Positions 42 through 25,264 of a stretch of 35,009 nucleotides of DNA are shown here, in pieces. Source of the DNA: Phycisphaeraceae bacterium (GTDB lineage Bacteria > Planctomycetota > Phycisphaerae > Phycisphaerales > UBA1924); the NCBI GenBank assembly GCA_021604785.1, contig BQJQ01000006.1, positions 1 through 35,009 on the forward strand, given 5' to 3'. A program made the translations under genes and the position numbers. The notes under the pieces are model-generated. The model did not search any database and was not told the DNA's origin. It worked only from the letters and a program-made list of their open reading frames with translations. Each line of letters starts with the position of its first letter. Position 1 is the first letter of the stretch.

Positions 42-93
42 GCGGCTAAACGCACCCGGCAAGCGGGGGGGGCCGAATCCCAATTACACTGGC

Positions 94-1488
94 GTGGCCA
101 CCTTCTTCACTCCCATGCGCGAGGCGCTGCTGGACCCGATGACGCTGACGCTGCCCTTTGTCCGTGAATCGCGGCGTGTTGGCGTGATCGGTCTGTACCA
201 GTCGGGGAAGACGACGTTTTTGACGTCGCTGATCGCGCACCTGCGCGCGCACGACCCGGGCGCGTTGCACCTGGGGCGCGGGGTGGAGGTGTTCCCGCCG
301 ACCGAGCTTGAGCCCGAAGTGGGGTTCGCGCGGTTTGACTTTGAGGGCAACCGAGCGCGGCTGGCGCGCGAGGGGCGCTGGCCCGACAAGACCGGCGCGA
401 GCTCGCAGTACCGGGCGGACCTGTCGGTGCAGCAGGGGGGACACGACGGGCGGGTGCGGCTGACGCTGACCGACTGCCCGGGCGAGCGCCTGGCGGACCT
501 GCCGATGGCGGGGCGGTCGTACGGCGCGTGGTCGGACTGGATGCTCGAGACGCTGGGCGGGGCGCAGCACGCCGAGCATGCGCGCGCAGTATTGGACGCA
601 ACGGCGTCGGGGACCGACGACGCGGAGTTGATGACGCGGGCGTATCGCGGGACTTTGGCGAGGCTGACGCTCGCGTTCACGCCGATCGCGAGCCCGTCGT
701 ACTTCCTGCTCGATGAAGGGGGATCGGAGGTACCGCCCGAGGCGCGGTCGGTGGAGCGGCTGGTGTCCGAGCGGTTCGCGGGGTTGAGCGAGGGCGAGCA
801 GTTTGCGCCCATGGGCGAGGCGCACCGCGCGCAGCGCGCCGAGATGGCGCGCGTATTCGAGCGGCGGTACCTCGCGTACCGCAAGCATGCGGTGGACCCG
901 CTGGCTCGGTGGCTCAAGCGGTGCCATCACCTGATGGTGCTGGTGGACGTGCCGATGATTTTGGCGGGAGGGGTCGGGATGCTGCGGGCGCACGCGGCGC
1001 TGATCGATCAGATCCTCGCGTACGCCGACCCTGGGTTCGGGGCGGCGGGGGAGTGGGTCCGGCGCGCGACGGCGGCGGTCGGGGTGCCGCTGGCGGGGGT
1101 GCGCCGGGTGACGTTCGTCGCGACCAAGTCGGACAAGGTCCACCCGGAGGACCGGGAGAAGCTCGACGCGTTGCTGCGCCAGTTGGTGCGTGAGCCGGTG
1201 CGTCGGCACCAGGCGCGCGCTCAGCACCTGGACATCGACTACTTCATCTGCTCGGCGGTGCGGTCGACGGCGTCGGGCGCCGATGGGCGGCTGGTCGGGC
1301 GGCTGCCGGGGCAGGGGGGGGACGCGAGCTTTACGGTCTCGCGTGTGCCCGCGGCGTGGCCGGCCGAGGCGTGGGGTGAGTATCGGTTCGCGAGCGTGAA
1401 GCCTCGGATGCCCGAGAACGAGATGTACCCGCCGGCGCACACGGGCATGCACCTGGTGGCGCGGGCGGTGCTGGGGATCGACGCGTGA
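94..1488 (+). CDS. YcjX-like P-loop NTPase (DUF463 family)
   Basis: A 464-residue GTPase-like protein of the YcjX/DUF463 family. A Walker A motif, GLYQSGKT, lies at residues 33-40. A Walker-B/switch-like stretch, TDCPGERL, is near residue 129, and a TKSD motif near residue 344 resembles the guanine-specificity motif. The length matches the family (about 460-490). In E. coli ycjX is adjacent to ycjF in the phage-shock (psp) regulon. The same pairing occurs here, with the DUF697 gene following after 13 bp, but no pspA/B/C genes are visible. The start is GTG at 94; an in-frame ATG at 115 (MREALL) is the alternative. The exact cellular role of the family is not settled; a membrane-stress role is inferred from E. 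coli. Confidence 0.88.
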   Translation: MATFFTPMREALLDPMTLTLPFVRESRRVGVIGLYQSGKTTFLTSLIAHLRAHDPGALHLGRGVEVFPPTELEPEVGFARFDFEGNRARLAREGRWPDKTGASSQYRADLSVQQGGHDGRVRLTLTDCPGERLADLPMAGRSYGAWSDWMLETLGGAQHAEHARAVLDATASGTDDAELMTRAYRGTLARLTLAFTPIASPSYFLLDEGGSEVPPEARSVERLVSERFAGLSEGEQFAPMGEAHRAQRAEMARVFERRYLAYRKHAVDPLARWLKRCHHLMVLVDVPMILAGGVGMLRAHAALIDQILAYADPGFGAAGEWVRRATAAVGVPLAGVRRVTFVATKSDKVHPEDREKLDALLRQLVREPVRRHQARAQHLDIDYFICSAVRSTASGADGRLVGRLPGQGGDASFTVSRVPAAWPAEAWGEYRFASVKPRMPENEMYPPAHTGMHLVARAVLGIDA

Positions 1489-1501
1489 GTGGAGGTTCGC
1501 G

Positions 1502-2596
1502 ATGAGCGAGAGCGACTTCGAGCGGTTCGGTGTGCCCCCGAGCGCGGTGCTGGACTCGCGCCCGATCGGGGAGGACGAGCTGCGCTCGATCCTCGAGTCT
1601 GAGGGCGATGACGAGGCGCTGCACGACGATGAGGCGATGGAGGCGTTGACGGTTCGGGACACGGGGCTGTTCCCGAGCCCGCTGGCGTGGCTGCGCGGGC
1701 CGGCGGCGGTGTCGGCGCTTGTCGTGCTGGGCGGGGTGCTGGTCCTGCTGGTGGTGAGCCAGGTGGTGGCGGTGTTGTCGGACGTCGCGACGCTGCCGGT
1801 GTGGGGGCAGTACGGGGTGTACGCGCTTTTGGCGCTGGCGGTGGGCGCGGTGGTGTTCGGGTTTGCGCGCGTGACGCTGGCGTTTGCGCGGTTCAAGGCG
1901 ACGCCGCGGTACTCGTTCAAGGCGTTGCAGCAGCTGGCGGACCGCGCAGATCTGCGCGAGCGCGCGCACACGGACCTGAGCGGGGCAGCGGCGCAGCTCG
2001 CGGGGATCGTCAAGCGGTACCCCTGCAAGACCGACGAGCAGCGCGCCAAGCTGGTGCGTCTGGGGTTCAAGCGCGACAGTCTCGAGCGGTTCGCGTCGGA
2101 CCGGGACCGGCTGCTCGAAGAGCACGGGGAGATCAGCCCGTCGGCGTGGTTGGCGCGGTACCGCGAGCTGTTCGGGCAACCCATAGACGAGGCGGCGCGC
2201 CGGGCGATCCGGCGCCGGTCGCTTTTGGTTGGGGCGAAGACGGCGGCGGTGCCGCACGGCGGGCTGGACACCGCGATCCTGCTGACGCACGCGTACCTGA
2301 TGATCGCGGATCTGTGCACGCTGTACCAGCTGCGGACGAACCGGGCGGGGACGATCGCGTTGACGTGGCGGATCATCGTGGCGGCGTTCGTCGCCGGGCG
2401 GCTCGAGGACCTGACCGACGAAGCCGCCCAGGAGCTGACGCGCCTGGCGACGGGTGCGACGGCGGGGACGCTGGCCAAGGCGTCCACGGCGGTGGCGGGT
2501 CGCGTGGTGGGCAAGGCGGCCGAGGGCGTCGTGAACGCGACGTTCGCGTACCGGCTGGGGCGGGCGGCGATGATTCGGCTTCGCCCGTTGGACTAG
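1502..2596 (+). CDS. YcjF-like DUF697 membrane protein
   Basis: A 364-residue inner-membrane protein of the YcjF/DUF697 type. An acidic, soluble N-terminal region of about 60 residues is followed by two hydrophobic segments (about 66-95 and 103-130) and then a long C-terminal domain. That domain carries the alpha-helical DUF697-like region (…GGLDTAILLTHAYLM…, …RIIVAAFVAGRLEDLTDE…). A clear Shine-Dalgarno sequence, GGAGG, at 1491-1495 lies 6 nt before the ATG, which fixes the start. It sits directly behind the YcjX-like gene and is presumably co-transcribed. Family assignment rests on architecture and neighbour; the function is unknown beyond the link to membrane stress. Confidence 0.82.
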   Translation: MSESDFERFGVPPSAVLDSRPIGEDELRSILESEGDDEALHDDEAMEALTVRDTGLFPSPLAWLRGPAAVSALVVLGGVLVLLVVSQVVAVLSDVATLPVWGQYGVYALLALAVGAVVFGFARVTLAFARFKATPRYSFKALQQLADRADLRERAHTDLSGAAAQLAGIVKRYPCKTDEQRAKLVRLGFKRDSLERFASDRDRLLEEHGEISPSAWLARYRELFGQPIDEAARRAIRRRSLLVGAKTAAVPHGGLDTAILLTHAYLMIADLCTLYQLRTNRAGTIALTWRIIVAAFVAGRLEDLTDEAAQELTRLATGATAGTLAKASTAVAGRVVGKAAEGVVNATFAYRLGRAAMIRLRPLD

Positions 2597-2757
2597 GTGG
2601 TGATCCTCTGTCCCGATTTTTTCTGTGACTTCCGAGAAAATTCGTGCGCACATCGTGTCGTGATGTTGCATTTGGCGCCCGGGGTGCACGGATCCCCGCT
2701 GTGCTCAGGGGGGGCCAGGCGTGCAACACAGGGGGCGTCTTGGGCGTACAAGTTCGT

Positions 2758-3330
2758 ATGCGAGGTGCGGGGGGCTCGGTCACGGATTTGATCCCGCGTT
2801 GGCGGCGGGGTGATCGTGGCGCGGAACACGAGATCTTGTCGGCGTTGTACGACGATTTGAGGTCGGTCGCGGGGCAGCATTTGCGGCACGAGCGCGTCGG
2901 GCACACGATGACGCCGACGGCGTTGGTGCATGAGGCGTACCTGCGGCTGATGGGCGCCGAGCCGCCCGAGGTGACGTCACGGTCGCACCTGCTCGGGATC
3001 ATCGCGCGGCTGATGCGGCAGATCCTGGTGAACCACGCGCTGGCGAAGAAGACGCTCAAACGTGGCGGGGGGCGGCCCACGCTGTCACTCGAGGCGGCGA
3101 CGGTGGCGCTCGAAGAACGCAGCGGGGACTTGGTCGCGCTCGACGAGGCATTGGGCAGGCTAGCGCAGATCGACCCGCGCCAGGCGGCGATCGTGGAGCT
3201 GCGATTCTTCGGAAACCTGACGATTCAGGAAACAGCGGACGTGCTGGGAGTTTCGGCGAGGTCAGTTGTGAGCGGGTGGGCGTTCGCGCGGGCGTGGCTG
3301 CATGGTGAGTTGCGGTGCGATGAACTCTGA
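2758..3330 (+). CDS. ECF-type RNA polymerase sigma factor (planctomycete ECF/kinase-linked type)
   Basis: A 190-residue sigma-70 family protein. Region 2 includes TALVHEAYLRL and the segment through RLMRQILVNHA. A linker, KRGGGRPTLSLEAA, leads into region 4, …LAQIDPRQAAIVELRFFGNLTIQETADVLGVSARSV, a helix-turn-helix for -35 recognition, followed by W-FARAWLHGEL. This pattern is typical of the ECF factors that planctomycetes encode next to Ser/Thr kinases. The frame stays open upstream to 2644, but the family's N-terminus (VTDLIPRWRRGD) begins close to the ATG at 2758, so that start is preferred. Its last 11 bp overlap the kinase gene if that begins at 3320. This implies translational coupling and a possible phosphorylation-linked signalling pair. 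No anti-sigma factor is visible. Confidence 0.9.
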   Translation: MRGAGGSVTDLIPRWRRGDRGAEHEILSALYDDLRSVAGQHLRHERVGHTMTPTALVHEAYLRLMGAEPPEVTSRSHLLGIIARLMRQILVNHALAKKTLKRGGGRPTLSLEAATVALEERSGDLVALDEALGRLAQIDPRQAAIVELRFFGNLTIQETADVLGVSARSVVSGWAFARAWLHGELRCDEL

Positions 3331-5824
3331 ACGTTGGCAGCGGCTGAATGCGTTGTTTGACCGGGCGGTCGGGCTCGAGGCTGATGAGCGTGATGCGTTC
3401 GTGCGTGCGGTCGGGGATGACGAGCCCGAGATGCATGGGGAGTTGGTCCGGCTGATCAGATCGCACGGGGCCGATCCGGGGTTTCTTTCGGAACCCCCGG
3501 CAGAACTCGGTGATGCGACCGAACCAGAGCGGATGACGGAGGGGACGCGGCTGGGGCCATACCGCGTCGAGTCGTTCATCGGCGAGGGCGGGATGGGAAC
3601 GGTGTACCGCGCGACGCGGGCCGATGAGCAGTATGAGCAGACCGTCGCGATCAAGGTGATCCGGCGGGAGGTTGCGACGCTCGGGTTGCTCGGGCACTTT
3701 CGGCGGGAGCGGCAGACGCTTGCAGAACTGCAGCACCCGAGTATCCCGCGGTTGATCGATGGGGGGACGACGCCGGATGGTCTGCCGTACCTGGTGATGG
3801 AGTTTGTGGTCGGGACGCCGATGCTGGCGCATTGCGAGCGCGTGGGCAGCGGTGTGCGCGAGCGGCTGGAGATGTTTCTGAGTGTGTGCGACGCGGTGCG
3901 GTATGCACACAGCCGGTTCATCGTTCATCGGGACATCAAGCCGGGGAACATCCTGGTGAGCGATGCGGGCGAAGTGCGGCTGTTGGACTTCGGGATCGCG
4001 CGGCTGGTGCTCGAACCGATTGAGCGCGGCGGCGTGGCCGACACGGTGACCGTGTTCACGCCCATGACGCCGGAGTATTCGAGTCCTGAGCAGGTGCGGG
4101 GCGAGGTGGTCTCGGCGGCGACGGATGTGTATTCGCTTGGGATGGTGCTGTATGAGTTGCTGACGGGTGTGCGGGCGTATGGGCTGGAGGGGATGGCGCG
4201 GTACGAGCGGGAGCGGGTGGTGTGTGAGGAGGAGCCGCGGTCGCCGAGCGACGCGTGCCGGGACCGTTCGCGGGCGTTGCGCGGGGATCTGGACGCGGTG
4301 GTCCTCCGGGCGTTGGAAAAGGACCCGGAGCGTCGGTACGGATCCGTCGAGGCGTTCGCGGCGGATATCGGGCGGCATCTGCGCGGCGAGCCGGTGCGGG
4401 CGCGCCGGACGCCGGCGGCGGTGCGGGTGCTGAAGTTCGCGCGTCGGCGCACGCCGGTGTTTGCGGCGATCGCGGTGAGCGCGGCGTCGGTCGTGCTGGC
4501 GGTGGGGGGGCTGACGTGGGGGATCGTGCACGCGGAGTCGTCGCGGGAGCGGGCGGTGGAGGACCGGAACGCGGCGGTCGCAGCCGAGCAGGATGCGCGG
4601 GACGCGGTTGTGTTCCTGGAGAGGCTGCTTGGGCGGGCCACGCCGTTTGCGCACGGACGGCCCGCGACGATCCAGGACCTGCTGGACGACGCGGACGCGC
4701 TGATTGCTGAGGAACTTCAGGGGCGGCCCGAGGTTGAGGCGGGGGTGCGGCTGGCGCTGGCCCGCATTCACTTCCAGCTGTTGCAGTACCAGGGCGCCGT
4801 GCCGCATGGGGTGCGGGCGTTGGCGCACTACCGGGCGACGCGGGAGGCGGACGACCCTGCGATCGCGGAGTGTTTGTTGATCGTCGGGCGCTGCCTCGCG
4901 GAGTTGTCGTTTACCGAGCGGGCGTCGGCTGACGGGGTGGCGGTGATGCTGCGCGAAGCGTCGGGGATCGTCCAGCGGGCGCACCCGCCGGGGCACCCGG
5001 AGATCGCGGCGGCGCGTGTGGCCCTGGCGATCGGGATCTGGGCTGAGGCTGGCGGCGGGCGGGCGCCGGACGAGACGGTGGGGTTGCTCGAAGGGGCGTT
5101 GGAGATGTTGGCGGCGGCGGGCGAGGGGGAGTCCGCGATTGCGGCGGGCGCGACGCTTGGGCTCGCGTACGCGAAGGACGGGCGGGGCGAGCGGGCGGAG
5201 GCTGGGCGGTTGTTTGCGCGCGCAACGGAGATCTATAGGCTGAATCCGGGGGCGGGCGCGGCGCCTTCCACGCTCGAAGCGCTCTCTGCGTACGCCGGGT
5301 TCTTGCACGACACGGGGGAGCCCGGGCGTGCGATCGGTGTGCTTGAGACCTATGAATCTGTCGCGCCGGAGGCGCCGCTCGCGTCCACGCGCGACATGCT
5401 GTGGCGATGGGCTGCGGCAGCGTACGAGTGCGGCGACACGGCGGCGGGGGATCTTCGTTTGGCGCAGGCGGTCGGGTACGAGGAACAACTCAGGGCGGGT
5501 GCGGCGTCGCACGTGTCGAGTTCGGGGCATGATGAACTCGGCGCGGGTGTTGGCGAACTCGCGGACTCGGAGCGCGAGCGGATGTTGGTCATGGCCTTGA
5601 CCGGGGGCGTGCCTGTGTACGCGGATCGGCCCCATGAAGTGCAGCGGCTGATCGGGCAGGTCGTGCGTGTTTCGCTCGCGATCGGCGGGGGGGCGATGGC
5701 TGGCGAGGTGCTCGGGGAAGGTGCCGCGTTGCTTGAGGCGGGCGGGGTAGATCCGGAATTGGAGGGCCTCCGCGCGATGCGGGGACTTTCGGATCGCTTC
5801 AAAGGCGAGGTTGCAGGCGGGTGA
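3320..5824 (+). CDS. membrane Ser/Thr protein kinase with C-terminal TPR-like region
   Basis: About 834 residues. A short N-terminal segment (NSERWQRLNALFDRAV) typical of planctomycete kinases is followed by a complete Hanks-type kinase domain: glycine loop GEGGMGTVYRA (about 88-98), AIKVIRRE lysine, catalytic HRDIKPGNIL (about 203-212), DFGIAR and the activation-segment SPEQ. One transmembrane helix (about 382-408) anchors it, leaving a long Ala/Leu-rich helical region with TPR-like character outside the membrane. ATG at 3320 is preferred because it begins the conserved MNSERW segment; ATG at 3302 is an in-frame alternative. The overlap with the sigma gene suggests a sensor kinase acting with or on that ECF factor, as in other planctomycete ECF-kinase pairs; this is inference. 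Confidence 0.9.
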   Translation: MNSERWQRLNALFDRAVGLEADERDAFVRAVGDDEPEMHGELVRLIRSHGADPGFLSEPPAELGDATEPERMTEGTRLGPYRVESFIGEGGMGTVYRATRADEQYEQTVAIKVIRREVATLGLLGHFRRERQTLAELQHPSIPRLIDGGTTPDGLPYLVMEFVVGTPMLAHCERVGSGVRERLEMFLSVCDAVRYAHSRFIVHRDIKPGNILVSDAGEVRLLDFGIARLVLEPIERGGVADTVTVFTPMTPEYSSPEQVRGEVVSAATDVYSLGMVLYELLTGVRAYGLEGMARYERERVVCEEEPRSPSDACRDRSRALRGDLDAVVLRALEKDPERRYGSVEAFAADIGRHLRGEPVRARRTPAAVRVLKFARRRTPVFAAIAVSAASVVLAVGGLTWGIVHAESSRERAVEDRNAAVAAEQDARDAVVFLERLLGRATPFAHGRPATIQDLLDDADALIAEELQGRPEVEAGVRLALARIHFQLLQYQGAVPHGVRALAHYRATREADDPAIAECLLIVGRCLAELSFTERASADGVAVMLREASGIVQRAHPPGHPEIAAARVALAIGIWAEAGGGRAPDETVGLLEGALEMLAAAGEGESAIAAGATLGLAYAKDGRGERAEAGRLFARATEIYRLNPGAGAAPSTLEALSAYAGFLHDTGEPGRAIGVLETYESVAPEAPLASTRDMLWRWAAAAYECGDTAAGDLRLAQAVGYEEQLRAGAASHVSSSGHDELGAGVGELADSERERMLVMALTGGVPVYADRPHEVQRLIGQVVRVSLAIGGGAMAGEVLGEGAALLEAGGVDPELEGLRAMRGLSDRFKGEVAGG

Positions 5825-5855: not shown

Positions 5856-5950
5856 GTGGTCCTTGTTCTTGCATGTATTGGTGTGCCGGTCCCTGATTGC
5901 GGCGCGATCGGTTCGGCGGTCCATACCTGTGTGTTCAAGGAGTGAGGCGA

Positions 5951-7426
5951 ATGACAACCCGGAGCAGAGGACAACTCGGTGCGATCATAATGGCGGCTAC
6001 GACAGTGGTGGCGGGCGGGGACGCGATGGGGCAGTTCGCCGAGGGCGACGTGGAGGTCATCCATGAAATCCTTGGGGCCAACGCGGGCGACAATCTTGGG
6101 TGGCAGGTGTGCGCGGTCGCAGACTACAACGGCGACGGGGCGATGGAGTTCATGTACGGCGTCGCGGGCGCGGACCCGGCCGGGATCAGCAACGCGGGCG
6201 TGATCGAGCTCCGCGACGGGGCGACGGGGGCGCTGATCCGCTCGCACGCGGGGACGCGCGTGAACGAGGGGCTCGGGTATGTTTGCGATGCTGGGGATGT
6301 GAACAACGACCAGATCGTCGATTACATGTTCGGGTCGCAGGACGGGTACGTCTACGTTTACTCGGGGGCCGACGGCGTGCTGCAGTACGAGTTCACGGGC
6401 GCCGCGGGGACGAACTTCGGGTTTCGCTCGTGTGGGATCGGTGACGTCACTGGGGACGGGTTCGGGGAGATGCTCATCGGGGCGTGGTCGAACGACGAGG
6501 CGGGCAACAACTTCGGGAAGGCGATCGTCTATTCAGGCGCGGACGGATCGGTTGTGCGGGAGCACTTCGGCATTCGTGCGAATGGGCAGTTCGGGCACAC
6601 CGTCTCGGCGCTGGGCGACATCGACGGGGACGGCGTGTCGGAATATAGCGTGGGGGCGCCGGGCCCCTACTCGGCGAGCCATCGCGGCGTGTTCTTCGCG
6701 TATTCGGGCGCGACGGGGTCCGAGTTGTACACGTTCAACGCGCGTACAACGGGGCGGATCTTTGCGGCGTGGCAGCAATGCCACGGCTTCCAGCACCTGA
6801 ATTACGACGGTGTGATCGACATTCTCGCGTGCGACATTTCGGATGTCGGGGCCGGGTTTGAGGCGGGGCGTTTGTACGCGATCGATGGGGCGACCGGGGC
6901 GGAGCTTTACACGATCGCCGGTTTCACGGCGAACAGCGGGCTCAGCGGCGTGCCGTGGAACGAGGCGGGGTCGATCGGGGACCTGACGGGTGATTGCATA
7001 TCGGACTTGGTCGTCGCGTCTTGGAAAAGCCAGGTCGGGGGTGCGAATGCGGGGCAGGCGCATGTGATCGATGGGCGCACACACGCGGTGCTCCGGACCA
7101 TCACGTGCAACGGCACGAACGCGAACTTTGCGGGCACGCTGGCCGGGGCGGGCGATGCAAACGGGGACGGGATCACGGACTATATCTTCGCCGCCAACGG
7201 GTACGACGGGGCGCGCGGGGCGGTCTGGGTGGTCGCGGGCCAGGACCACACGCAGCCGTCGCCGGCGGATCTTGACGGCAACGGGGTGTTGAATGTGGAC
7301 GACATCGACGCGTTCGTGACGGCGTTCGTGACGTTCTCGCTGGATGCGGACATGGACGGGAATTTCGTGCTGAACGTGGACGATGTGGATGCGTTCGTGG
7401 TGTTCTTCACCGGCAACTGCCCGTGA
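5951..7426 (+). CDS. secreted FG-GAP repeat protein with C-terminal Asp-rich repeat
   Basis: 491 residues. The strong Shine-Dalgarno AAGGAG at 5937-5942 lies 8 nt before the ATG at 5951 and fixes the start, although the frame is open further upstream. A plausible signal peptide precedes about seven FG-GAP / integrin-alpha-like repeats. Each has a calcium-binding-like Asp loop, for example DYNGDGAMEF, DVTGDGFGEM, DIDGDGVSEY, DLTGDCISDL and DANGDGITDY, which suggests a beta-propeller. The C-terminus has two Asp-rich copies, DLDGNGVLNVDDIDAFV and DMDGNFVLNVDDVDAFV, resembling dockerin/EF-hand motifs. This ending recurs on planctomycete exoproteins. The protein is probably extracellular and adhesive or binding; its ligand is unknown. 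Confidence 0.85.
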   Translation: MTTRSRGQLGAIIMAATTVVAGGDAMGQFAEGDVEVIHEILGANAGDNLGWQVCAVADYNGDGAMEFMYGVAGADPAGISNAGVIELRDGATGALIRSHAGTRVNEGLGYVCDAGDVNNDQIVDYMFGSQDGYVYVYSGADGVLQYEFTGAAGTNFGFRSCGIGDVTGDGFGEMLIGAWSNDEAGNNFGKAIVYSGADGSVVREHFGIRANGQFGHTVSALGDIDGDGVSEYSVGAPGPYSASHRGVFFAYSGATGSELYTFNARTTGRIFAAWQQCHGFQHLNYDGVIDILACDISDVGAGFEAGRLYAIDGATGAELYTIAGFTANSGLSGVPWNEAGSIGDLTGDCISDLVVASWKSQVGGANAGQAHVIDGRTHAVLRTITCNGTNANFAGTLAGAGDANGDGITDYIFAANGYDGARGAVWVVAGQDHTQPSPADLDGNGVLNVDDIDAFVTAFVTFSLDADMDGNFVLNVDDVDAFVVFFTGNCP

Positions 7427-7474
7427 CGCGACCGGGCTGGGCGTGATTCTCGTGTGATCCGTTTGTATACTCGT

Positions 7475-7525
7475 TTGGCCAGATTCAGCGGGCGAAGCCG
7501 CGGCACGCTCGCCTTGCCTGGCCAA
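7475..7525. repeat. inverted repeat with nested hairpin abutting the dif-like site
   Basis: TTGGCCAG (7475-7482) and CTGGCCAA (7518-7525) are perfect 8-bp inverted repeats separated by 35 bp. A nested GGCGA (7491-7495) / TCGCC (7509-7513) can pair inside. The right arm ends exactly where the dif-like site begins. It could act as a terminator for the upstream FG-GAP gene, although no T-tract follows, or as a protein site beside dif. Confidence 0.4.
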
Positions 7526-7553
7526 GCTTTACATAACATGCATTATCGGGCCT
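7526..7553 (-). other. dif: candidate dif site (XerC/XerD recombination site)
   Basis: A 28-bp element with the 11-6-11 layout of bacterial dif sites lies in a non-coding gap. The arms on the plus strand are GCTTTACATAA (7526-7536) and TTATCGGGCCT (7543-7553), with a 6-bp centre CATGCA. On the minus strand the XerD-side half reads TTATGTAAAGC; its first nine bases equal those of the B. subtilis dif arm (TTATGTAAACT). By my alignment, 18 of 28 positions match the E. coli dif and 18 of 28 match the B. subtilis dif. It lies within several kilobases of a change in plus-strand GC skew, as expected near a replication terminus. The site sequences used for comparison are from memory. Confidence 0.6.
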
Positions 7554-7605
7554 TGGGTTTGGTGCTCCTGTTGCTCCACAGGCTCGGTGTCTGGCCCAAT
7601 GAGAA

Positions 7606-7633
7606 ACGGCCCGCCCAGGGTGGGACGGGCCGT
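7606..7633 (-). terminator. terminator of the downstream paralogue (7684-9066)
   Basis: ACGGCCCG (7606-7613) pairs perfectly with CGGGCCGT (7626-7633), with an inner CCC/GGG extension and a small loop. On the minus strand it lies 50 bp after the stop codon and is followed by GTTTCTC, a short T-rich run. It closely resembles the hairpin after the neighbouring paralogue at 9118-9144. Confidence 0.7.
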
Positions 7634-7683
7634 GGAGATTGGTGGCGTTGATGCGTTCCGGGCGGGCGGCGACGCGTGCCTGC

Positions 7684-9066
7684 TCAGCCGTCGTCACCGG
7701 TCGTGGTGACCTCGGGCTCGCAAACCCAGACGCCGAAGGCGTGCCCCCGGGGCGCGCCGTGCAGGGCGGGATCCGAGACGGGCGTTGGCATGTCGAACCC
7801 GATCGGCGCGTTGCGGTACTTCGCTTCGTTCAGGCGGATGTTGCACGCGCGACGCCCCTCGAAGAGCCAGACGGTGCGCTTGCCCGCGGCGAAGCCCTGC
7901 TCGGAGAAGATCGTCAGCCAGTAGTTGTGTCCGCTGGCGAGAACGACGCCCTCGGGGCAGACGAAGGTGAGCCCATAGACGCGCAGACCCTCGACCGTGA
8001 GCGGGATGTCGGACTCGAAGATGGACGTGGGCGCGAACTTGTACAGTGCGGCGTCCGGGCTGTTCTCGGGCATGTCGCAGACGTTGTTGTAGATCTCGGC
8101 GTAGAGGGTCGAGATGTCGCAGTTGGTTGCGACGAACGCCTCGATGCGGCAGATGCCCCACTCTTCGATCTCGCCGCAGGGGTCAGAGAGTTGGAAGTCA
8201 TCGAACGAGCGGTTCCAGGGCGCGTTCTGGGAGAGGATGGGGTCGTAGAGCCCGCCGTTGGGGGTCGTGTCGATAAAGAGCTGATCGAGCACGCGCCAGC
8301 AGCACTTGCCCTCGACGCGCATGTACATGTCGGTGCAGATGCCGCAGCAGAGTTCGTCGGCGGCGGGCGACCACTCGGGCAGGCCGAAGGCGGGCGCGTT
8401 GACGTGGGCCTGGCGGCCTTGGATCTGGCCTTTATTGGCGGACATCCAGAACCCGAAGCCGCCGATGGGCGACTGCCCGCGATCGACGCTGTCGTGCGCC
8501 GGGGAGAACCAGCGGAGGTCCTCGCCTTGCTTGAACGAGTCGACGTAGTAGGAGATCTCCCAGATGGCGTAGCCCTCGAGCTCGCCGCCCGGGGCACCGT
8601 CCACGAGGGTGAAGTCGAACTGCTCGATGGGGACGGTGGCGAGCGACGAGTCGGGCTTGCCGTCGCAATCGGGGAAGATGGAGAGCGTGGTGTTGGGCGT
8701 GTAGCCGTTGGTGATCGCCATGCGGACGTAAACGAACTGGCAGTCGTAGAACATGCCTTCCTTGAGCCAGCAGTCGTCGGCGACGCGTGACTCGACGTGG
8801 TCGTTGACGGTGCTCATGTAGCCGACCGCGCGGTCCTCGAGGCCGTTGTCCCAGAGGGCGTCGGAGAGGACGGTGTCGGCGTCGCCGGCGACGCCGCCGG
8901 AAGGGGCGCCGAGCAGGCGGAGGGCAACATCGGGCGACTCCCCCACGGCCGAGCGTTCGGGCGTGGCGGGGCCGCGGACGGCGCGTTGCTGGGCGTGGGC
9001 GGAGCCAGCGGCGGCTGCAAGGATCGCGAGTGCGGCGATTGAGACGCGGGCAGGGTACAGATTCAT
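7684..9066 (-). CDS. secreted Cys-rich protein of unknown function (paralogue B)
   Basis: About 460 residues starting at ATG 9066; a GTG at 9075 is less likely because the signal peptide begins at MNLYPARVS. The signal peptide is MNLYPARVSIAALAIL…AHA, with cleavage after AHA. I do not recognise the family. Visible features are many Cys pairs (DDCWLKEGMFYDC, CCGICTDMYMRVEGKCCW), two DD-x-L segments (VADDCWL and FDDFQL) that each open a half of the protein, and a C-terminal RGHAFGVWVCEPE. The two halves look like diverged beta-sandwich repeats, which is inference. It is a tandem duplicate of the gene at 9187-10542; the central region is about two-thirds identical by eye. It has its own terminator at 7606-7633. 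Likely exported and disulphide-bonded. Confidence 0.8.
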   Translation of the reverse strand: MNLYPARVSIAALAILAAAAGSAHAQQRAVRGPATPERSAVGESPDVALRLLGAPSGGVAGDADTVLSDALWDNGLEDRAVGYMSTVNDHVESRVADDCWLKEGMFYDCQFVYVRMAITNGYTPNTTLSIFPDCDGKPDSSLATVPIEQFDFTLVDGAPGGELEGYAIWEISYYVDSFKQGEDLRWFSPAHDSVDRGQSPIGGFGFWMSANKGQIQGRQAHVNAPAFGLPEWSPAADELCCGICTDMYMRVEGKCCWRVLDQLFIDTTPNGGLYDPILSQNAPWNRSFDDFQLSDPCGEIEEWGICRIEAFVATNCDISTLYAEIYNNVCDMPENSPDAALYKFAPTSIFESDIPLTVEGLRVYGLTFVCPEGVVLASGHNYWLTIFSEQGFAAGKRTVWLFEGRRACNIRLNEAKYRNAPIGFDMPTPVSDPALHGAPRGHAFGVWVCEPEVTTTGDDG

Positions 9067-9117
9067 GATGGGCACGCTTTCGGGTTATGGGGCGAACATC
9101 TGGCCTCAGAACGAAGA

Positions 9118-9186: not shown

Positions 9187-10542
9187 TTACGGCGTGCCGG
9201 GATCGCAAACCCAGACGGAGAACGCGTGGCCGCGGGGCGCGCCATGCAGACCAGCGTCGGAAACGCCGGTGGGCATGTCGTAGCCGATCGGGGCGTTGCG
9301 GTACTTGGCCTCGTTCAGGCGGATGTTGCAGGCAGCACGCTGCTGGAACAGCCAGACCGAACGCTTGCCGGCGACGAAGCCCTGCTCAGAGAAGATCGAG
9401 AACCAGTAGTTCTGACCGGTGGGCAGGAGGTCGTCGGGGCACCAGAAGACGAACTTGTAGACCGGCAGCGCGGTGGTGCCGGAGTTGATCGTCATGCCCA
9501 GGTCCTCGTAGAAGGACGGGGTCAGACGGTAGGGGGCGGCGTCCGGATCGACCGGCATGTCGCACTCGTTGTTGAAGATCTCACCGTAGACGGTGGTCAC
9601 GTCGCAGTTGGTGGCGAAGTACGCCTCGATGCGGCAGATGCCCCAGTTGTCGACCTGCTTGCAGGGGTCGGCGAGCTGGAAGTCATCGAAGGAGCGGTTC
9701 CAGGGCGCGTTCTGGGCGAGGACCGGGTCGGTCAGGCCGTCCAGATCGAAGTTGCTCTGGGCGAGGACGCGCCAGCAGCACTTGCCCTCGACACGGAGGT
9801 ACATGTCGGTGCAGATGCCACAGCAGATCTCCTGCTCAGCGGCGGTCCACTCGGGGAGGCCGAAGCCGGCGGCGTTGACGTGGGTCTGGCGACCCTGGAT
9901 GACGCCGTTGTTGGCCGAAACCCAGAAGCCGAAGCCACCCTCGACCGAGAGGTCGCCGTCACGGTCGACATCGTCGTGGACCGGGGAGAGCCAGCGGATC
10001 TGCTCGCCCTGGTAGAACTGATCGACGTAGTAGCAGATCTCCCAGACGGCGGTGCCGTCGAGGTCGCCACCGGGGGCGGCGTCGATCAGCGTGTAGTCGA
10101 ACTGCTCGACCACGACCGGAGCCACGGAGGAGTCCGGCTTGCCGTCGCAGTCACGGTACATGTAGAGCTGCGTGTTGGGCAGGAAGCCGTTGGTGATGGC
10201 CATACGCACGTAGACGTACTGGCAATCGTAGAACATGCCTTCCTTGAGCCAGCAGTCGTCGGCGACCTGCGAGCTGACGTGAGCGTTCACAGTGCTCATG
10301 AAGGCAACACGGCGATCCTCGTCGCCGTTGTACCACAGAGCGTGCGAAGCGTTGGAGTTACCACCGTCGCCGTCGACGATGCCGTCACCAACGAGCATGA
10401 TCTCGGGGGCTTCGGTGACCTTGGTCGCCTTGCCGCCGTTGATCGCGCCCGAGCTGGTGAAGCGCTGGGCGTCGGCGCCGCCGACACACAGGGCCAGAGC
10501 TGCGGCAGCGGTAAACGCTGCGGAACCAGTACACATCTTCAT
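9187..10542 (-). CDS. secreted Cys-rich protein of unknown function (paralogue A)
   Basis: 451 residues from ATG 10542. The purine-rich GAGGGGAG lies 8 nt upstream on the minus strand, so this start is better than the GTG at 10551. The signal peptide is MKMCTGSAAFTAAAALALCVGGADA. It shares the layout of its downstream paralogue: VADDCWLKEGMFYDC, GGFGFWVSANNGVIQGRQ, EICCGICTDMYLRVEGKCCW, RSFDDFQLADPC, SEQGFVAGKRSVWLFQ and RGHAFSVWVCDPG. Conserved paired cysteines suggest an extracellular, disulphide-stabilised fold. The two genes arose by tandem duplication that included the terminator. I recognise no catalytic motif, so no function is assigned. Confidence 0.8.
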   Translation of the reverse strand: MKMCTGSAAFTAAAALALCVGGADAQRFTSSGAINGGKATKVTEAPEIMLVGDGIVDGDGGNSNASHALWYNGDEDRRVAFMSTVNAHVSSQVADDCWLKEGMFYDCQYVYVRMAITNGFLPNTQLYMYRDCDGKPDSSVAPVVVEQFDYTLIDAAPGGDLDGTAVWEICYYVDQFYQGEQIRWLSPVHDDVDRDGDLSVEGGFGFWVSANNGVIQGRQTHVNAAGFGLPEWTAAEQEICCGICTDMYLRVEGKCCWRVLAQSNFDLDGLTDPVLAQNAPWNRSFDDFQLADPCKQVDNWGICRIEAYFATNCDVTTVYGEIFNNECDMPVDPDAAPYRLTPSFYEDLGMTINSGTTALPVYKFVFWCPDDLLPTGQNYWFSIFSEQGFVAGKRSVWLFQQRAACNIRLNEAKYRNAPIGYDMPTGVSDAGLHGAPRGHAFSVWVCDPGTP

Positions 10543-10978
10543 TGCTGTCACTCCCCTCAGATTTGGTGATCTGAATTGACGATTGATGCACCAACATCAC
10601 CTTCCCACCGGGGCGCATCAATCCCCGGAGGTACGTCTCGAACAACAAGTTTTGGGGTGGGCGTCTTCTCTCCGCACAACCCCGAAAGCCCGGGGTTACC
10701 CTCGGGCGCCACGCATCCTAAGCCATTGTCCTACATGGGTGCAAGCCCTGTCGTCAAGAAACTCGCACGAGCCAGAATCGACCTGTTTCGGGCCGGGATG
10801 GTCACGCGGGATTCATCGCGATCGCGGGTCATAGCTACCCCAGATCAACAGCCATCTGACACGGGGGCCGAGAACCGGACCGCCCGTTCGCCGGCGGTCA
10901 CGTCCTGTGACGCCGGTCTATCTTCAATGTGGCACCATTCGTAGGGCTACGCAAACTTTCCAACGGATTATCGGGCAA
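10543..10978. other. gene-free stretch upstream of paralogue A
   Basis: This is about 436 bp without a convincing gene, less GC-rich than the neighbours. Three hairpins are visible. CCGGGG (10608-10613) / CCCCGG (10623-10628) would lie in the 5' leader of paralogue A on the minus strand. AACCCCG (10678-10684) pairs with CGGGGTT (10691-10697). CCGGCG-TCAC (10891-10901) pairs with GTGA-CGCCGG (10907-10916). The last is a weak terminator candidate for the lipid-kinase gene, whose stop is at 10979. The promoter of paralogue A must lie here, but I see no clear -35/-10 pair. Confidence 0.5.
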
Positions 10979-11944
10979 TTACCTAACTTCACATGTGCCC
11001 GGTGCTGTGGGTGTTCCGGGTGTGGGTGTGCCTTTGGAGCTTGAAAACACGGTCTCCGTGCGTTGCAAAGGTGTGAAGACGGGTAGCTTGGCGCGTTGCA
11101 GCGAGAACTCGGTGCGGGTCTGCGTTTCGTGTGCGTTTTGCCACTCGCCGTCGATCTGGATCGGGGTTCTCGGGTCATGGAGGTCTACACCGACGCGCAT
11201 TCCGGTGGCTACGACCGCGCGTGGGTGGGTCCCGACACTCCGGCGCCACGCGCTGACCCCCCACCGCAGCACACCCACCGAGCCGTCCGCGGGCAGGAAC
11301 GCGACGTGGAGGTCGCCGGAGAAGAGGGACGCGTCCGGGCAGGGGTCGAGGTGGGCGGCATATTCACGCGTGTTCGCGATGATGAGCACGCCCTGGTCTG
11401 CGTTCACGATGCGGCGACCGTCCACCTCGACGGTGAGGCTCGGGATCGCCGGGCGGAGCAGCTCGCGGACCATGGGTTCGACGTACGCCAGGTGCCCGAT
11501 CGCCCGGCGGCGGCTCAGGGCAACTCGGCGGACCACGCTCGCGTCCGGGCCAAGGCTTGCCATGATCAGGAACGGGTCCGGGCCGGCCATGCCAACGTCG
11601 GCGAGCCCGGTTTGCCCGGATTCCATCGCGTCGAGCATCGCCCGCGGCGACCGACGCATGTCCAAGGCCCGGGCGAAGAGGTTCTCGTTGCCCGTGGGTA
11701 TCTGATAGATCGGGGCCCGGGCCTCGATGGCCGCGGCAGCGGACCGGTTCACGGTGCCGTCCCCCCCCACCACGGCTAGGGCGTCGGCGTGGGCGAGCTT
11801 CTCGGGATCGAGGCGTTCGGACCCCCCCACCTCGAGGAGCTTGCACCGGTGCCCGCGCGTCCGGGCGGCGGCGCGGAGGTCGCGGGCGAGGCGGGCGGCG
11901 ATGCCGCGCCCGGACTTCGGGTTGGCGAGCACGACAAGGTCCAC
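10979..11944 (-). CDS. diacylglycerol kinase family lipid kinase
   Basis: 321 residues with a GTG start at 11944. The N-terminal DAGK catalytic domain shows the nucleotide-binding loop VVGGDGTVNRS (GGDGTVN at 60-66). The segment IPTGNENLFARAL (about 82-94) matches the usual GTGNDFAR region with substitutions. LANPKSGRG at residues 6-14 is the conserved opening of the family. This matches the YegS/BmrU-type ATP-dependent lipid kinases (COG1597), which phosphorylate diacylglycerol, sphingosine or related lipids; the substrate here cannot be told. The C-terminus ends in a Pro/Thr-rich tail (GTPTPGTPTAPGT). It is transcribed divergently from the map gene, and the 66-bp gap must hold both promoters. 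Confidence 0.88.
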   Translation of the reverse strand: MDLVVLANPKSGRGIAARLARDLRAAARTRGHRCKLLEVGGSERLDPEKLAHADALAVVGGDGTVNRSAAAAIEARAPIYQIPTGNENLFARALDMRRSPRAMLDAMESGQTGLADVGMAGPDPFLIMASLGPDASVVRRVALSRRRAIGHLAYVEPMVRELLRPAIPSLTVEVDGRRIVNADQGVLIIANTREYAAHLDPCPDASLFSGDLHVAFLPADGSVGVLRWGVSAWRRSVGTHPRAVVATGMRVGVDLHDPRTPIQIDGEWQNAHETQTRTEFSLQRAKLPVFTPLQRTETVFSSSKGTPTPGTPTAPGTCEVR

Positions 11945-12010
11945 GGGCCCAAGGGTAGCCGGACGCGGCGCCAGCCCCGGCGTGGGCGGGCGTCGCTACG
12001 ATCGCGGTCC

Positions 12011-12835
12011 ATGAGCCGCCCGCCAGTCCGGAATCAAGCCGACGCCGACGCCGCCACCGCCGCCGCGGAGAAAGTGGTCGAGATCCATCGGCGCCTGTCC
12101 AAGCATCTTGCCGCGGGGCAGACGCTTGGGCAGATCGACGCGTTCGTCGGGAAGTGCCTCGATGATCTGGGGTGCAAGAGCTGCTTCTTCAAATACTCGC
12201 CTGGGCGGATGCCGCCGTTCCCATCGCAGGCGTGCCTTTCGGTGAACGAGTGCGTCGTGCACGGCACCGCCGGGTACCGGACCGAGCCGCTGGGTGAGGG
12301 GGACGTGCTCAAGATCGACATCGGCGTGAGCTACCGCGGGTGGATCGGTGACGCCGCGTGGACGTATGTCTTCGGCACCCCCACCGACGAGGTCGCCCGT
12401 CTGTGCAAGGCGGGCAAGCAGTCGCTGGCGTTGGGGATCGAGCAGATTGGACCTCGGACGCCCTATATGGAATGGGCCAAGGCGGTGCAGTCGTGCGTGG
12501 AGGGGGACTTCGGGTTCCACCTGGTGCGCGGGCTGGGCGGGCACGGGTACGGGCGGAAGCTGCACGCGCCGCCGTTCGTGTCGAATACGGTGCCGAACTC
12601 GCCGTTCGAGTGGCCCGAGGCGCGGATGACGCCCGAGCCGGGGACGCTGATCGCGCTCGAGCCGATGCTCGCGGTGGGCACGGGGCAGACGCGGCAGGAG
12701 CCGCGGACGTGGCCGATCTACTCGGCGGACGGGTCGATGACCGTCCACTACGAGCACGACGTGCTGGTGACCGAGGACGGGAACCGGGTGCTGACCGCGG
12801 GGCTGACCGAGATTGAGGACGTGATCACGCGATGA
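12011..12835 (+). CDS. map: methionine aminopeptidase, type I
   Basis: 274 residues. It removes the initiator methionine from nascent proteins in the cytoplasm. The pita-bread fold signatures are visible: LSVNECVVHG (substrate-side His), the two metal-binding Asp in KIDIGVSYRGWIGDAAWTY, the His in GLGGHGYGRKLH, and the Glu ligands in LIALEPML and VHYEHDVLV. The ATG at 12011 is chosen because the family's N-terminus begins here; the frame stays open upstream only by overlapping the divergent lipid-kinase gene. Its stop codon overlaps the trpA start (ATGA), implying coupling with tryptophan synthesis, an unusual pairing. Confidence 0.93.
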   Translation: MSRPPVRNQADADAATAAAEKVVEIHRRLSKHLAAGQTLGQIDAFVGKCLDDLGCKSCFFKYSPGRMPPFPSQACLSVNECVVHGTAGYRTEPLGEGDVLKIDIGVSYRGWIGDAAWTYVFGTPTDEVARLCKAGKQSLALGIEQIGPRTPYMEWAKAVQSCVEGDFGFHLVRGLGGHGYGRKLHAPPFVSNTVPNSPFEWPEARMTPEPGTLIALEPMLAVGTGQTRQEPRTWPIYSADGSMTVHYEHDVLVTEDGNRVLTAGLTEIEDVITR

Positions 12836-13650
12836 ACCGGGTCGAGCAGGCATTCGCGGGGGCGAAGGAACGCGGCGTGGGCGTGCTGATCCCGTACGTC
12901 TGCCCGGGCGATCCGGCAGCAGACACCGTCGAGCGGCTCGTGCCCGCGCTCGAGCGGGCCGGTGCGGGCGTGATCGAGATCGGCGTGCCGTACTCGGACC
13001 CGATCGCGGACGGGCCGGTGATCGCCGCGGCGATGCACCGGGCGCTGATGGCGGGCACGACGCCCGAGGGCGTGTTTGAGCAGGTCGCGCGGGTACGCGG
13101 GCAGGTCTCGTGCGGGCTGGTCGCGATGGTCTCGGTGAGCCTCGTCCACGCGGCAGGGATCGAGGCGTTCATCGGGCGGGCGAAGGACGCCGGGTTTGAC
13201 GGGTTCATTTTTTCGGACGCGCCGCTCGAGGAATCGGGCGAGCTGACGGCAGCAGCGGCAGATGCGGGGCTGACGTGCACGCTGCTGGTCTCCCCTACCA
13301 CGCCCAAAGACCGTGCCGAGCGAATTGCCAGGGCGTGCACCGGGTTCGTCTACATGTTGGCCCGCTCGGGCATCACCGGCGAACGGTCGGACGCGCCCGA
13401 CGTGGCGGATCGCGTCCGGGCCTTGCGTTCAGCGACGGACACGCCCATCGCCTGCGGGTTCGGGATCTCCAGCGCGGACCACGTCCGGGCGGTGGTGAAC
13501 GAGGCGGACGGGGCGATCGTGGGCAGCGCGCTCGTTCGACGCCTGTCTGAAGCGAGCTTCCGGGGCGAGGATTACGTACGCGCGGGCGAGGCCTTCACCG
13601 CCGAACTGGCGACGGGGCTCTCGGGCCACCGCGACGCGCCGCACGCCTGA
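12832..13650 (+). CDS. trpA: tryptophan synthase alpha chain
   Basis: 272 residues. It cleaves indole-3-glycerol phosphate to indole and glyceraldehyde 3-phosphate in complex with TrpB. The TIM-barrel signatures are PYVCPGDP (usually P-x-x-TAGDP) and VIEIGVPYSDPIADGPVI, which carries both catalytic residues (Glu and Asp). The C-terminal phosphate-binding region is CGFGISSADHVRAVVNEADGAIVGSALV. The length is normal (about 260-280). The ATG overlaps the map stop by 4 bp. No other trp genes are in the window, so trpA is separated from trpB, at least in this stretch. Confidence 0.93.
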   Translation: MNRVEQAFAGAKERGVGVLIPYVCPGDPAADTVERLVPALERAGAGVIEIGVPYSDPIADGPVIAAAMHRALMAGTTPEGVFEQVARVRGQVSCGLVAMVSVSLVHAAGIEAFIGRAKDAGFDGFIFSDAPLEESGELTAAAADAGLTCTLLVSPTTPKDRAERIARACTGFVYMLARSGITGERSDAPDVADRVRALRSATDTPIACGFGISSADHVRAVVNEADGAIVGSALVRRLSEASFRGEDYVRAGEAFTAELATGLSGHRDAPHA

Positions 13651-23237: not shown

Positions 23238-24866
23238 ATGAAGAAGGTCGCGGTCGCGGTTTGGAGTGAACTCGTACCTGACGCCCCCGTTGGCACGGTT
23301 GTCGCCAATGTTGACCTCGTCGTCACGCGGTACCAGCGCAACGGACAGGACCAAGTGAGTGTCCTCTACGGCCGCTGCCTGCATCGCGGCGCCCTCATGG
23401 CGGACGGGCATGTGGATGGGGACAACCTCATCTGCGGAGTACACGGGTGGGACTATCGGGTCGACAGCGGCGTCTCCGAGTACAACAACGCCGAGCGCCT
23501 GCACAAGTTCAGCGCTTGGATCGAGGACCACGGCGGCGCGCGCTCGGTCGTGGTCGATGCGGACGAGATCGTGGCGTGGGAGGATGCGAACCCTCAGCCG
23601 TTCAAACGTGATGAGTACCAGGGGCTTTACCAGGACACGAATCCCGACGAGGCCGAGCCGCACGTCGGGCTCATCCAGTCGCTCGCCCGAGACGGGCTAA
23701 GCAAGTTCGGGCACCACGGCCCCAGCGGCGCGATGGGCGTCGAGCGCCAGAAGCTGCCGAGTTGGGATGATCTGCAGTTCGTCACGGCCCAGATGGCGAC
23801 CAAGCCCCTGCTCGACGAGCACCCGGTCGAGACAAGCGTCACAATCGGCCCGCGGGCCAAGAAGCCGCTGACCCTCAAGATCCCGCTGTTCGTCAGCGAC
23901 ATGAGCTTCGGAGCGCTCTCGGCCGAGGCCAAGGTGGCGCTCGCCAAAGGCGCCGAGCTCGCCGGCACGGGCATCTGCTCGGGCGAGGGCGGCATGCTGC
24001 CCGACGAACAAGCCGCCAACTCACGCTACTTCTACGAGCTCGCGAGCGCCAAATTCGGGTTCTCCATGGACAAGGTCTCCAAGTGCCAGGCGTTTCATTT
24101 CAAGGGCGGGCAGGGCGCCAAGACGGGCACCGGCGGGCACCTTCCCGGCGAGAAGGTTGACAAGGTCATCGCCTCGGTCCGAGGCATCCCCGTGGGCTCC
24201 CCCGCAATCTCGCCCGCGACGTTCGCCGACCTCGTCACACCCGCCGACTTTGCGCGCATCGCCGACGAGGTCCGCGACATCACCGGCGGCATCCCCATCG
24301 GGTTCAAGCTCAGCGCCCAGCACATCGAGGACGACATCGACTTCGCCCTCGGAGCCGGCGCCGACTACATCATCCTCGACGGCCGCGGCGGCGGCACCGG
24401 CGCCGCCCCGCTGCTCTTCCGCGACAACATCTCCGTGCCCACCATCCCCGCCCTCGCCCGCGCCCGGCGCCACCTGGACACAAAGAGCCCGGACACGACA
24501 CTCGTGATCACCGGCGGCCTGCGCACGCCGGCGGACTTCGCCAAGGCGCTGGCCTTGGGCGCCGACGCGATCGCCGTCTCGAACGCTGCGATCCAGGCGA
24601 TCGGATGCCTGGGCATGCGGGCGTGCAGCTCGAACAACTGCCCCGTCGGCATCGCGACCCAGAAGCCCGGGCTGCGCCAACGACTCGTCATCGATGAGTC
24701 CGCCACGCGGCTCAAGAACTTCTTCGAAGCGTCCACGCACCTCATCGCCGTCATGGCCCGCGCGTGCGGGCACGATTCACTTTCCAAGCTCGCTCCGCGT
24801 GATCTCGTCGCCTGGAAACGCGAGCTCGCCGATCTCGCCGGCGTGCGCTACGCGGGTGTGTCGTGA
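23238..24866 (+). CDS. Rieske [2Fe-2S] domain fused to FMN-dependent glutamate synthase-type domain
   Basis: 542 residues. Residues 1-105 form a Rieske ferredoxin-like domain with cluster ligands Cys47, His49, Cys66 and His69 (CLHRG and CGVHGWDY). Residues from about 150 onward are the FMN-binding glutamate synthase barrel (GltS/GltB2 type): PLFVSDMSFGALSAEAKVALAKGA, GTGICSGEGGMLPDEQ, FHFKGGQGAKTGTGGHLPG, SPATFADL and DGRGGGTGAAP. CLGMRACSSNNCPVGIATQ near residue 456 carries the [3Fe-4S] cysteines. There is no glutamine amidotransferase domain. The Rieske domain probably feeds or accepts electrons for the flavin; the real substrate is unknown. It opens a tight operon, with its TGA overlapping the next GTG by 4 bp. 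Confidence 0.92.
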   Translation: MKKVAVAVWSELVPDAPVGTVVANVDLVVTRYQRNGQDQVSVLYGRCLHRGALMADGHVDGDNLICGVHGWDYRVDSGVSEYNNAERLHKFSAWIEDHGGARSVVVDADEIVAWEDANPQPFKRDEYQGLYQDTNPDEAEPHVGLIQSLARDGLSKFGHHGPSGAMGVERQKLPSWDDLQFVTAQMATKPLLDEHPVETSVTIGPRAKKPLTLKIPLFVSDMSFGALSAEAKVALAKGAELAGTGICSGEGGMLPDEQAANSRYFYELASAKFGFSMDKVSKCQAFHFKGGQGAKTGTGGHLPGEKVDKVIASVRGIPVGSPAISPATFADLVTPADFARIADEVRDITGGIPIGFKLSAQHIEDDIDFALGAGADYIILDGRGGGTGAAPLLFRDNISVPTIPALARARRHLDTKSPDTTLVITGGLRTPADFAKALALGADAIAVSNAAIQAIGCLGMRACSSNNCPVGIATQKPGLRQRLVIDESATRLKNFFEASTHLIAVMARACGHDSLSKLAPRDLVAWKRELADLAGVRYAGVS

Positions 24867-25264
24867 TACCCGCGGCGATCCATCCCGAGCCCGCAGCCGG
24901 TGCCATCGACGGCGCCCACGCCCTCGTCATGCACGCGCTCGAGTGGGCCGTGCTGGGCATCAACACCGTCTGCGCCGCCGTGCTGATCTGGGGCGTGCTC
25001 ATCGGGATCGCGCGGTTCGTCCTCCTCGAGGCCCGGTGGGGCAAGAGGGACACCACGCGCTGGCCCGCGCTCCGCCAACGCGTCGGGCAGTACCTCCTCT
25101 TCGGGCTCGAGCTGCTCATCGCCGCGGACATCATCGAGACCATGATCCGCCCCACCCTGTCCCAGCTCGCGATCCTCGGCGGCGTGTCGCTGCTGCGGAT
25201 TGTCACCGGGTACGCGCTCGGGCGGGAGCTGAACGAGATCGCCGCCAAGGATCCCCATGACTGA
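24863..25264 (+). CDS. DUF1622 family small membrane protein
   Basis: 133 residues from GTG 24863, overlapping the previous stop codon. Three hydrophobic stretches (about 24-52, 75-94 and 100-118) and the segment GLELLIAADIIETMIRPTLSQLAILGGVSLLRIVTGYALGREL are typical of DUF1622 inner-membrane proteins. The function is unknown. Its position between two Rieske fusion enzymes, overlapping both genes, suggests that it anchors or connects them at the membrane; this is inference. Confidence 0.85.
   Translation: MIPAAIHPEPAAGAIDGAHALVMHALEWAVLGINTVCAAVLIWGVLIGIARFVLLEARWGKRDTTRWPALRQRVGQYLLFGLELLIAADIIETMIRPTLSQLAILGGVSLLRIVTGYALGRELNEIAAKDPHD

Follow-up and report, generated by a model that had tools for sequence, protein, structure and literature searches.

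In model bacteria, recombination at the chromosomal dif site depends on FtsK acting at a septum built by FtsZ, and Planctomycetes are known to divide mostly without FtsZ. The closest described systems are those of Escherichia coli, with dif, XerCD and FtsK, and of Bacillus subtilis, with dif, RipX-CodV and SpoIIIE-SftA. In the B. subtilis system the SRS motif is GAGAAGGG (PMC9764985), and variants of SRS and of its E. coli counterpart, KOPS, have been described in other groups (PMC5357621, PMC9764985). In the survey of Kono et al. 2011, dif prediction failed in Planctomycetes, with zero of one genome (PMC3025954), and no later report of dif or KOPS in a planctomycete was found in the open-access literature. 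In this study, we have analysed a 35,009-nucleotide stretch of DNA (the window), which is one entire contig of the 273-contig draft genome of a Phycisphaerales bacterium, and in which a dif site had been proposed at positions 7526-7553.

The 28-bp site and its immediate setting

Read on the minus strand, from 7553 to 7526, the site has the sequence AGGCCCGATAA|TGCATG|TTATGTAAAGC. It comprises an XerC arm (AGGCCCGATAA, 7543-7553, with the group consensus ARGTCCKATAA derived from alignment and position counts), a 6-bp central region (TGCATG, 7537-7542, placed by the layout, with poorly conserved inner positions) and an XerD arm (TTATGTAAAGC, 7526-7536, with the group consensus TTATGTNAAAY derived from alignment), all on the minus strand. 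The 11-6-11 architecture put forward in the original prediction is borne out by this direct reading of the 28 bases, and so is its count of 18 of 28 positions shared with E. coli dif; B. subtilis dif is likewise identical at 18 of 28. The gap that had been described as gene-free, 7427-7683, contains shadow ORFs only, and is flanked by convergent genes, an FG-GAP/dockerin-like gene on the plus strand (5897-7426) and a gene on the minus strand (7684-9075).

The inverted repeat reported to abut the site is real, with a stem at 7473-7482/7518-7527 (GTTTGGCCAG/CTGGCCAAGC). Together with a TTT it makes up a plus-strand hairpin (7473-7530) which lies 3' of the upstream plus-strand gene and touches dif. 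This hairpin is probably the transcription terminator of that gene, the evidence for which is weak since its stability is no greater than that of shuffled sequences (z -0.4 to -1.2). A second, intrinsic-terminator-like hairpin, that of the convergent minus-strand gene (7606-7633, minus strand, z -4.6), is the stronger terminator-like candidate of the two.

A weight matrix trained on other genera, with the bacterium's own genus left out, scores the site at 41.4 bits, the runner-up position in the window reaching -2.5 bits, and the number of equally good matches expected by chance in 2 x 2.87 Mb (both strands) is about 4e-7. A further sequence model, R1, gives the site 27.2 bits (E 1e-5). It is the single match in the draft genome (2.87 Mb, 273 contigs, 88% complete), where the search for a second or better match proposed with the original prediction returned none better; no other dif-like site was found when up to 3 mismatches were allowed in the window and up to 1 in the genome. 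Contact with a hairpin and a location in a convergent intergenic gap would also suit an AT-rich palindrome that arose there by chance, possibly belonging to a terminator. The minute chance expectation and the recurrence of the same 28 bp phylum-wide, between flanks that differ, nevertheless make such a coincidence exceedingly improbable.

Distribution, gene neighbourhood and chromosomal position

Comparison with relatives, which had been suggested as a check, revealed the same 28-bp site, usually in one copy per genome. With a degenerate pattern it was found in 43 of 61 relatives, almost always singly, and another degenerate pattern matched in 215 of the 247 genomes of the class, some of these matches being due to chance, as a backward control pattern also matches in a number of genomes. 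A sequence model built from 52 sites recovered most of the genomes missed by the patterns, among them a genus whose XerC arm has diverged. At E<=0.1 this model matches 317 of 393 planctomycete genomes, with a single copy in roughly nine in ten of them, while about 20% of the 393 have no match at this threshold; the reversed control model matches 21 of 393, a background of about 5%, none of them below E 0.017. When 75 sites were aligned, the conserved block proved to be the 28 bp, with information near zero beyond the end-adjacent bases, namely an A just before the block and a weaker base just after it.

Among named database loci, matches to the exact core come mostly from Phycisphaerales and other Planctomycetota, and flanking DNA connects the relatives of the bacterium's own family with records named Phycisphaeraceae and Planctomycetota. 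The exact core pattern is also present in seven records labelled Sphingomonas, Deltaproteobacteria, Bacteroidota and others, so that XerC arms of the GTCC type also occur outside Planctomycetota. Two genomes depart from the usual copy number. In the complete planctomycete genome G579, two dif-like sites in opposite orientation lie about 50 bp apart (contig C1, 1332185-1332287). In the case of G057, an identical dif sequence is found at two contig ends (C1:100-127 and C10:1-28), which may stem either from a break in the assembly at dif or from a genuine duplication.

The genes beside the site have also been kept in other genera. A same-order block formed by a DAGK-like gene (minus strand), an M24 peptidase gene (plus strand) and trpA (plus strand) occupies 10979-13650 of the window, and the order and orientation dif-DAGK-M24-trpA are maintained in a named Phycisphaerales genome and, within the extent of the locus, in G018. 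G228 and G254 have their M24 and trpA genes on that same side of dif, at a distance of 8-12 kb. Between dif and this block, the window carries two tandem genes for secreted proteins (7684-9075 and 9187-10551, both on the minus strand), which are 63% identical, have in common a C-terminal GLHGAPRGHAFxVWVC-like motif and show no Pfam, PHROGs or NCBIfam match where tested. Farther to the right, two adjacent plus-strand genes, one glutamate-synthase-like (23238-24866) and one for a TPP enzyme (25257-27305), each encode an N-terminal Rieske domain.

This neighbourhood bears on the idea that the site is an attachment site left by a mobile element that exploits Xer recombination (an IMEX, a phage or a plasmid that had inserted at dif), rather than the working dif. 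Such elements do use dif-like sites, and the additional sites in G057 and G579 would fit their activity. Here, however, the genome holds one site only, five neighbouring or unknown genes lack any phage-family match, the remaining genes tested belong to housekeeping or ordinary families, and the same gene block adjoins the site in other genera, all of which renders this origin very unlikely.

The position expected of a chromosomal dif is best seen in G181, a relative with a complete 3.84-Mb chromosome, in which GC skew switches from plus to minus at the site, at 3.243 Mb: positive values span about 1.6 to 3.1 Mb, negative values run from 3.35 Mb round the circle to about 1.4 Mb, and the reverse switch lies some 1.75 Mb away from the site. 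The change near the site in G228 is suggestive only, and sampled GC skew gives no clean switch in G254, G195 and G086, where it is weak or dominated by gene strand. Within the window, the skew is +0.216 to the left of the site and -0.026 to its right, and the cumulative maximum falls near 16 kb. In one genus, represented by five genomes of the phylum, ftsK itself is no more than about 100-120 kb away from dif.

Recombination machinery and a candidate orienting motif

The bacterium's own genome carries genes for two recombinases, one XerC-like and one XerD-like, both with RKHRHY-type catalytic motifs; the two proteins narrowly miss the strict NCBIfam equivalog cut-offs but pass the general Xer subfamily model. 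Its FtsK carries a gamma domain (84 bits), as found in 115 of the 118 planctomycete genomes sampled, and FtsZ exceeded the cut-off in none of these 118. The candidate dif call is supported by a single match, by conservation of the 28 bp across the phylum, by the gene block kept beside the site in other genera, by the skew switch in G181, by the Xer and FtsK proteins and by a polar motif, described below, that converges on the site, and we regard 7526-7553 as almost certainly the chromosomal dif of this Phycisphaerales bacterium.

The gamma domain normally forms the extreme C-terminus of FtsK. In the bacterium's own FtsK reading frame (814-3114, minus strand, locus L036 on contig C21), as well as in loci L289-L307, it is followed by a tail of 30-240 residues, often about half D/E; this tail occurs in the window's own family and order.

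In ten relatives, octamers were screened for a strand bias that points to dif, and GGNGGGGG and related motifs ranked highest. Written as RGNGGGGG, the motif points toward rather than away from dif at a ratio of 187:40 in the 20-kb discovery flanks of these ten relatives. The polarity is retained in data that played no part in discovery: 28:2 in the window (binomial p 9e-7), 107:37 in 77 other loci (p 4e-9) and 157:32 in 44 named-record loci, nearly all from Planctomycetota (p 5e-21). To the left of the site in the window, 12 plus-strand copies (62-5691, starting at 62, 65, 1044, 1092, 1313, 1314, 2707, 3064, 4501, 4738, 5443 and 5684) run toward dif and none away; to the right, 16 minus-strand copies (11258-34839) run toward it and two away (12499 and 28260). 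The motifs of the model systems were also counted. The E. coli KOPS gave 20:17, not clearly polar, and 57:30, weakly polar, in the independent sets, and the B. subtilis SRS is too rare near the sites to be judged.

G-rich motifs track GC skew, and the converging octamers might accordingly be a by-product of G bias on the leading or coding strand, with no role in guiding FtsK. The reversed control motif GGGGGNGR does show a mild bias of its own (67:41 and 114:55), but the skew of RGNGGGGG lies far above it. Moreover, the polarity is kept in genes that face away from dif (45:15 toward:away, and 8:1 in the window) and between genes (45:17), all by rough gene calls from a caller seeded with known genes, and it persists where pooled GC skew is close to zero (0.036 and 0.008). 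An origin in base composition therefore appears unlikely, though it retains appreciable weight, and RGNGGGGG is, on sequence grounds, a likely candidate for the FtsK-orienting sequence.

The working of the site can be pictured by analogy with E. coli, from which XerCD binding, XerD activation and recombination would be carried over. One 11-bp arm, at 7543-7553, would be occupied by XerC and the other, at 7526-7536, by XerD. Should sister chromosomes become linked in a dimer, polar G-rich octamers, in this bacterium probably (A/G)GNGGGGG, would direct the FtsK located at the division site along the DNA to the terminus. On arriving at two XerCD-bound copies of dif, its gamma domain would activate XerD, and strand exchange over the 6-bp centre would convert the dimer into two monomers.

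Comparison with known systems

Sites of this kind are known; what is new is the placement in a phylum for which the earlier survey gave no dif prediction and in which FtsZ passed the cut-off in none of the 118 genomes sampled, together with a different candidate orienting motif. We lean toward a broader reading, in which the Planctomycetota retain XerCD, dif and FtsK throughout the phylum without FtsZ, and in which FtsK would read a different octamer, (A/G)GNGGGGG. If this is true, dimer resolution in planctomycetes would be linked to division machinery that works without FtsZ. The phylum-wide set of dif sites, with the candidate motif, would serve to mark the terminus of replication in draft genomes and makes chromosome separation in these bacteria testable.

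With the E. coli system, the planctomycete one has in common the 11-6-11 layout, 18 of 28 bases, separate XerC and XerD proteins, the gamma domain of FtsK and polar motifs converging on the site. It differs in the XerC arm, which is of the GTCC type here and GTGCGC in E. coli, in the orienting motif, for which RGNGGGGG is the candidate here and GGGNAGGG (KOPS) the E. coli sequence, and in FtsZ, over the cut-off in none of the genomes sampled. In the case of B. subtilis, the XerD arm begins with TTATGTAAA in both systems, and the group consensus is identical to its dif at 21 of 28 positions. The sites of Kono et al. 2011 (PMC3025954) are of the same kind as those described here, having been identified with a profile and being predicted to lie close to the GC-skew switch. 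Whereas that main published survey recovered dif in zero of one planctomycete genome, the present set covers about 80% of 393 and fills the phylum that had been left empty.
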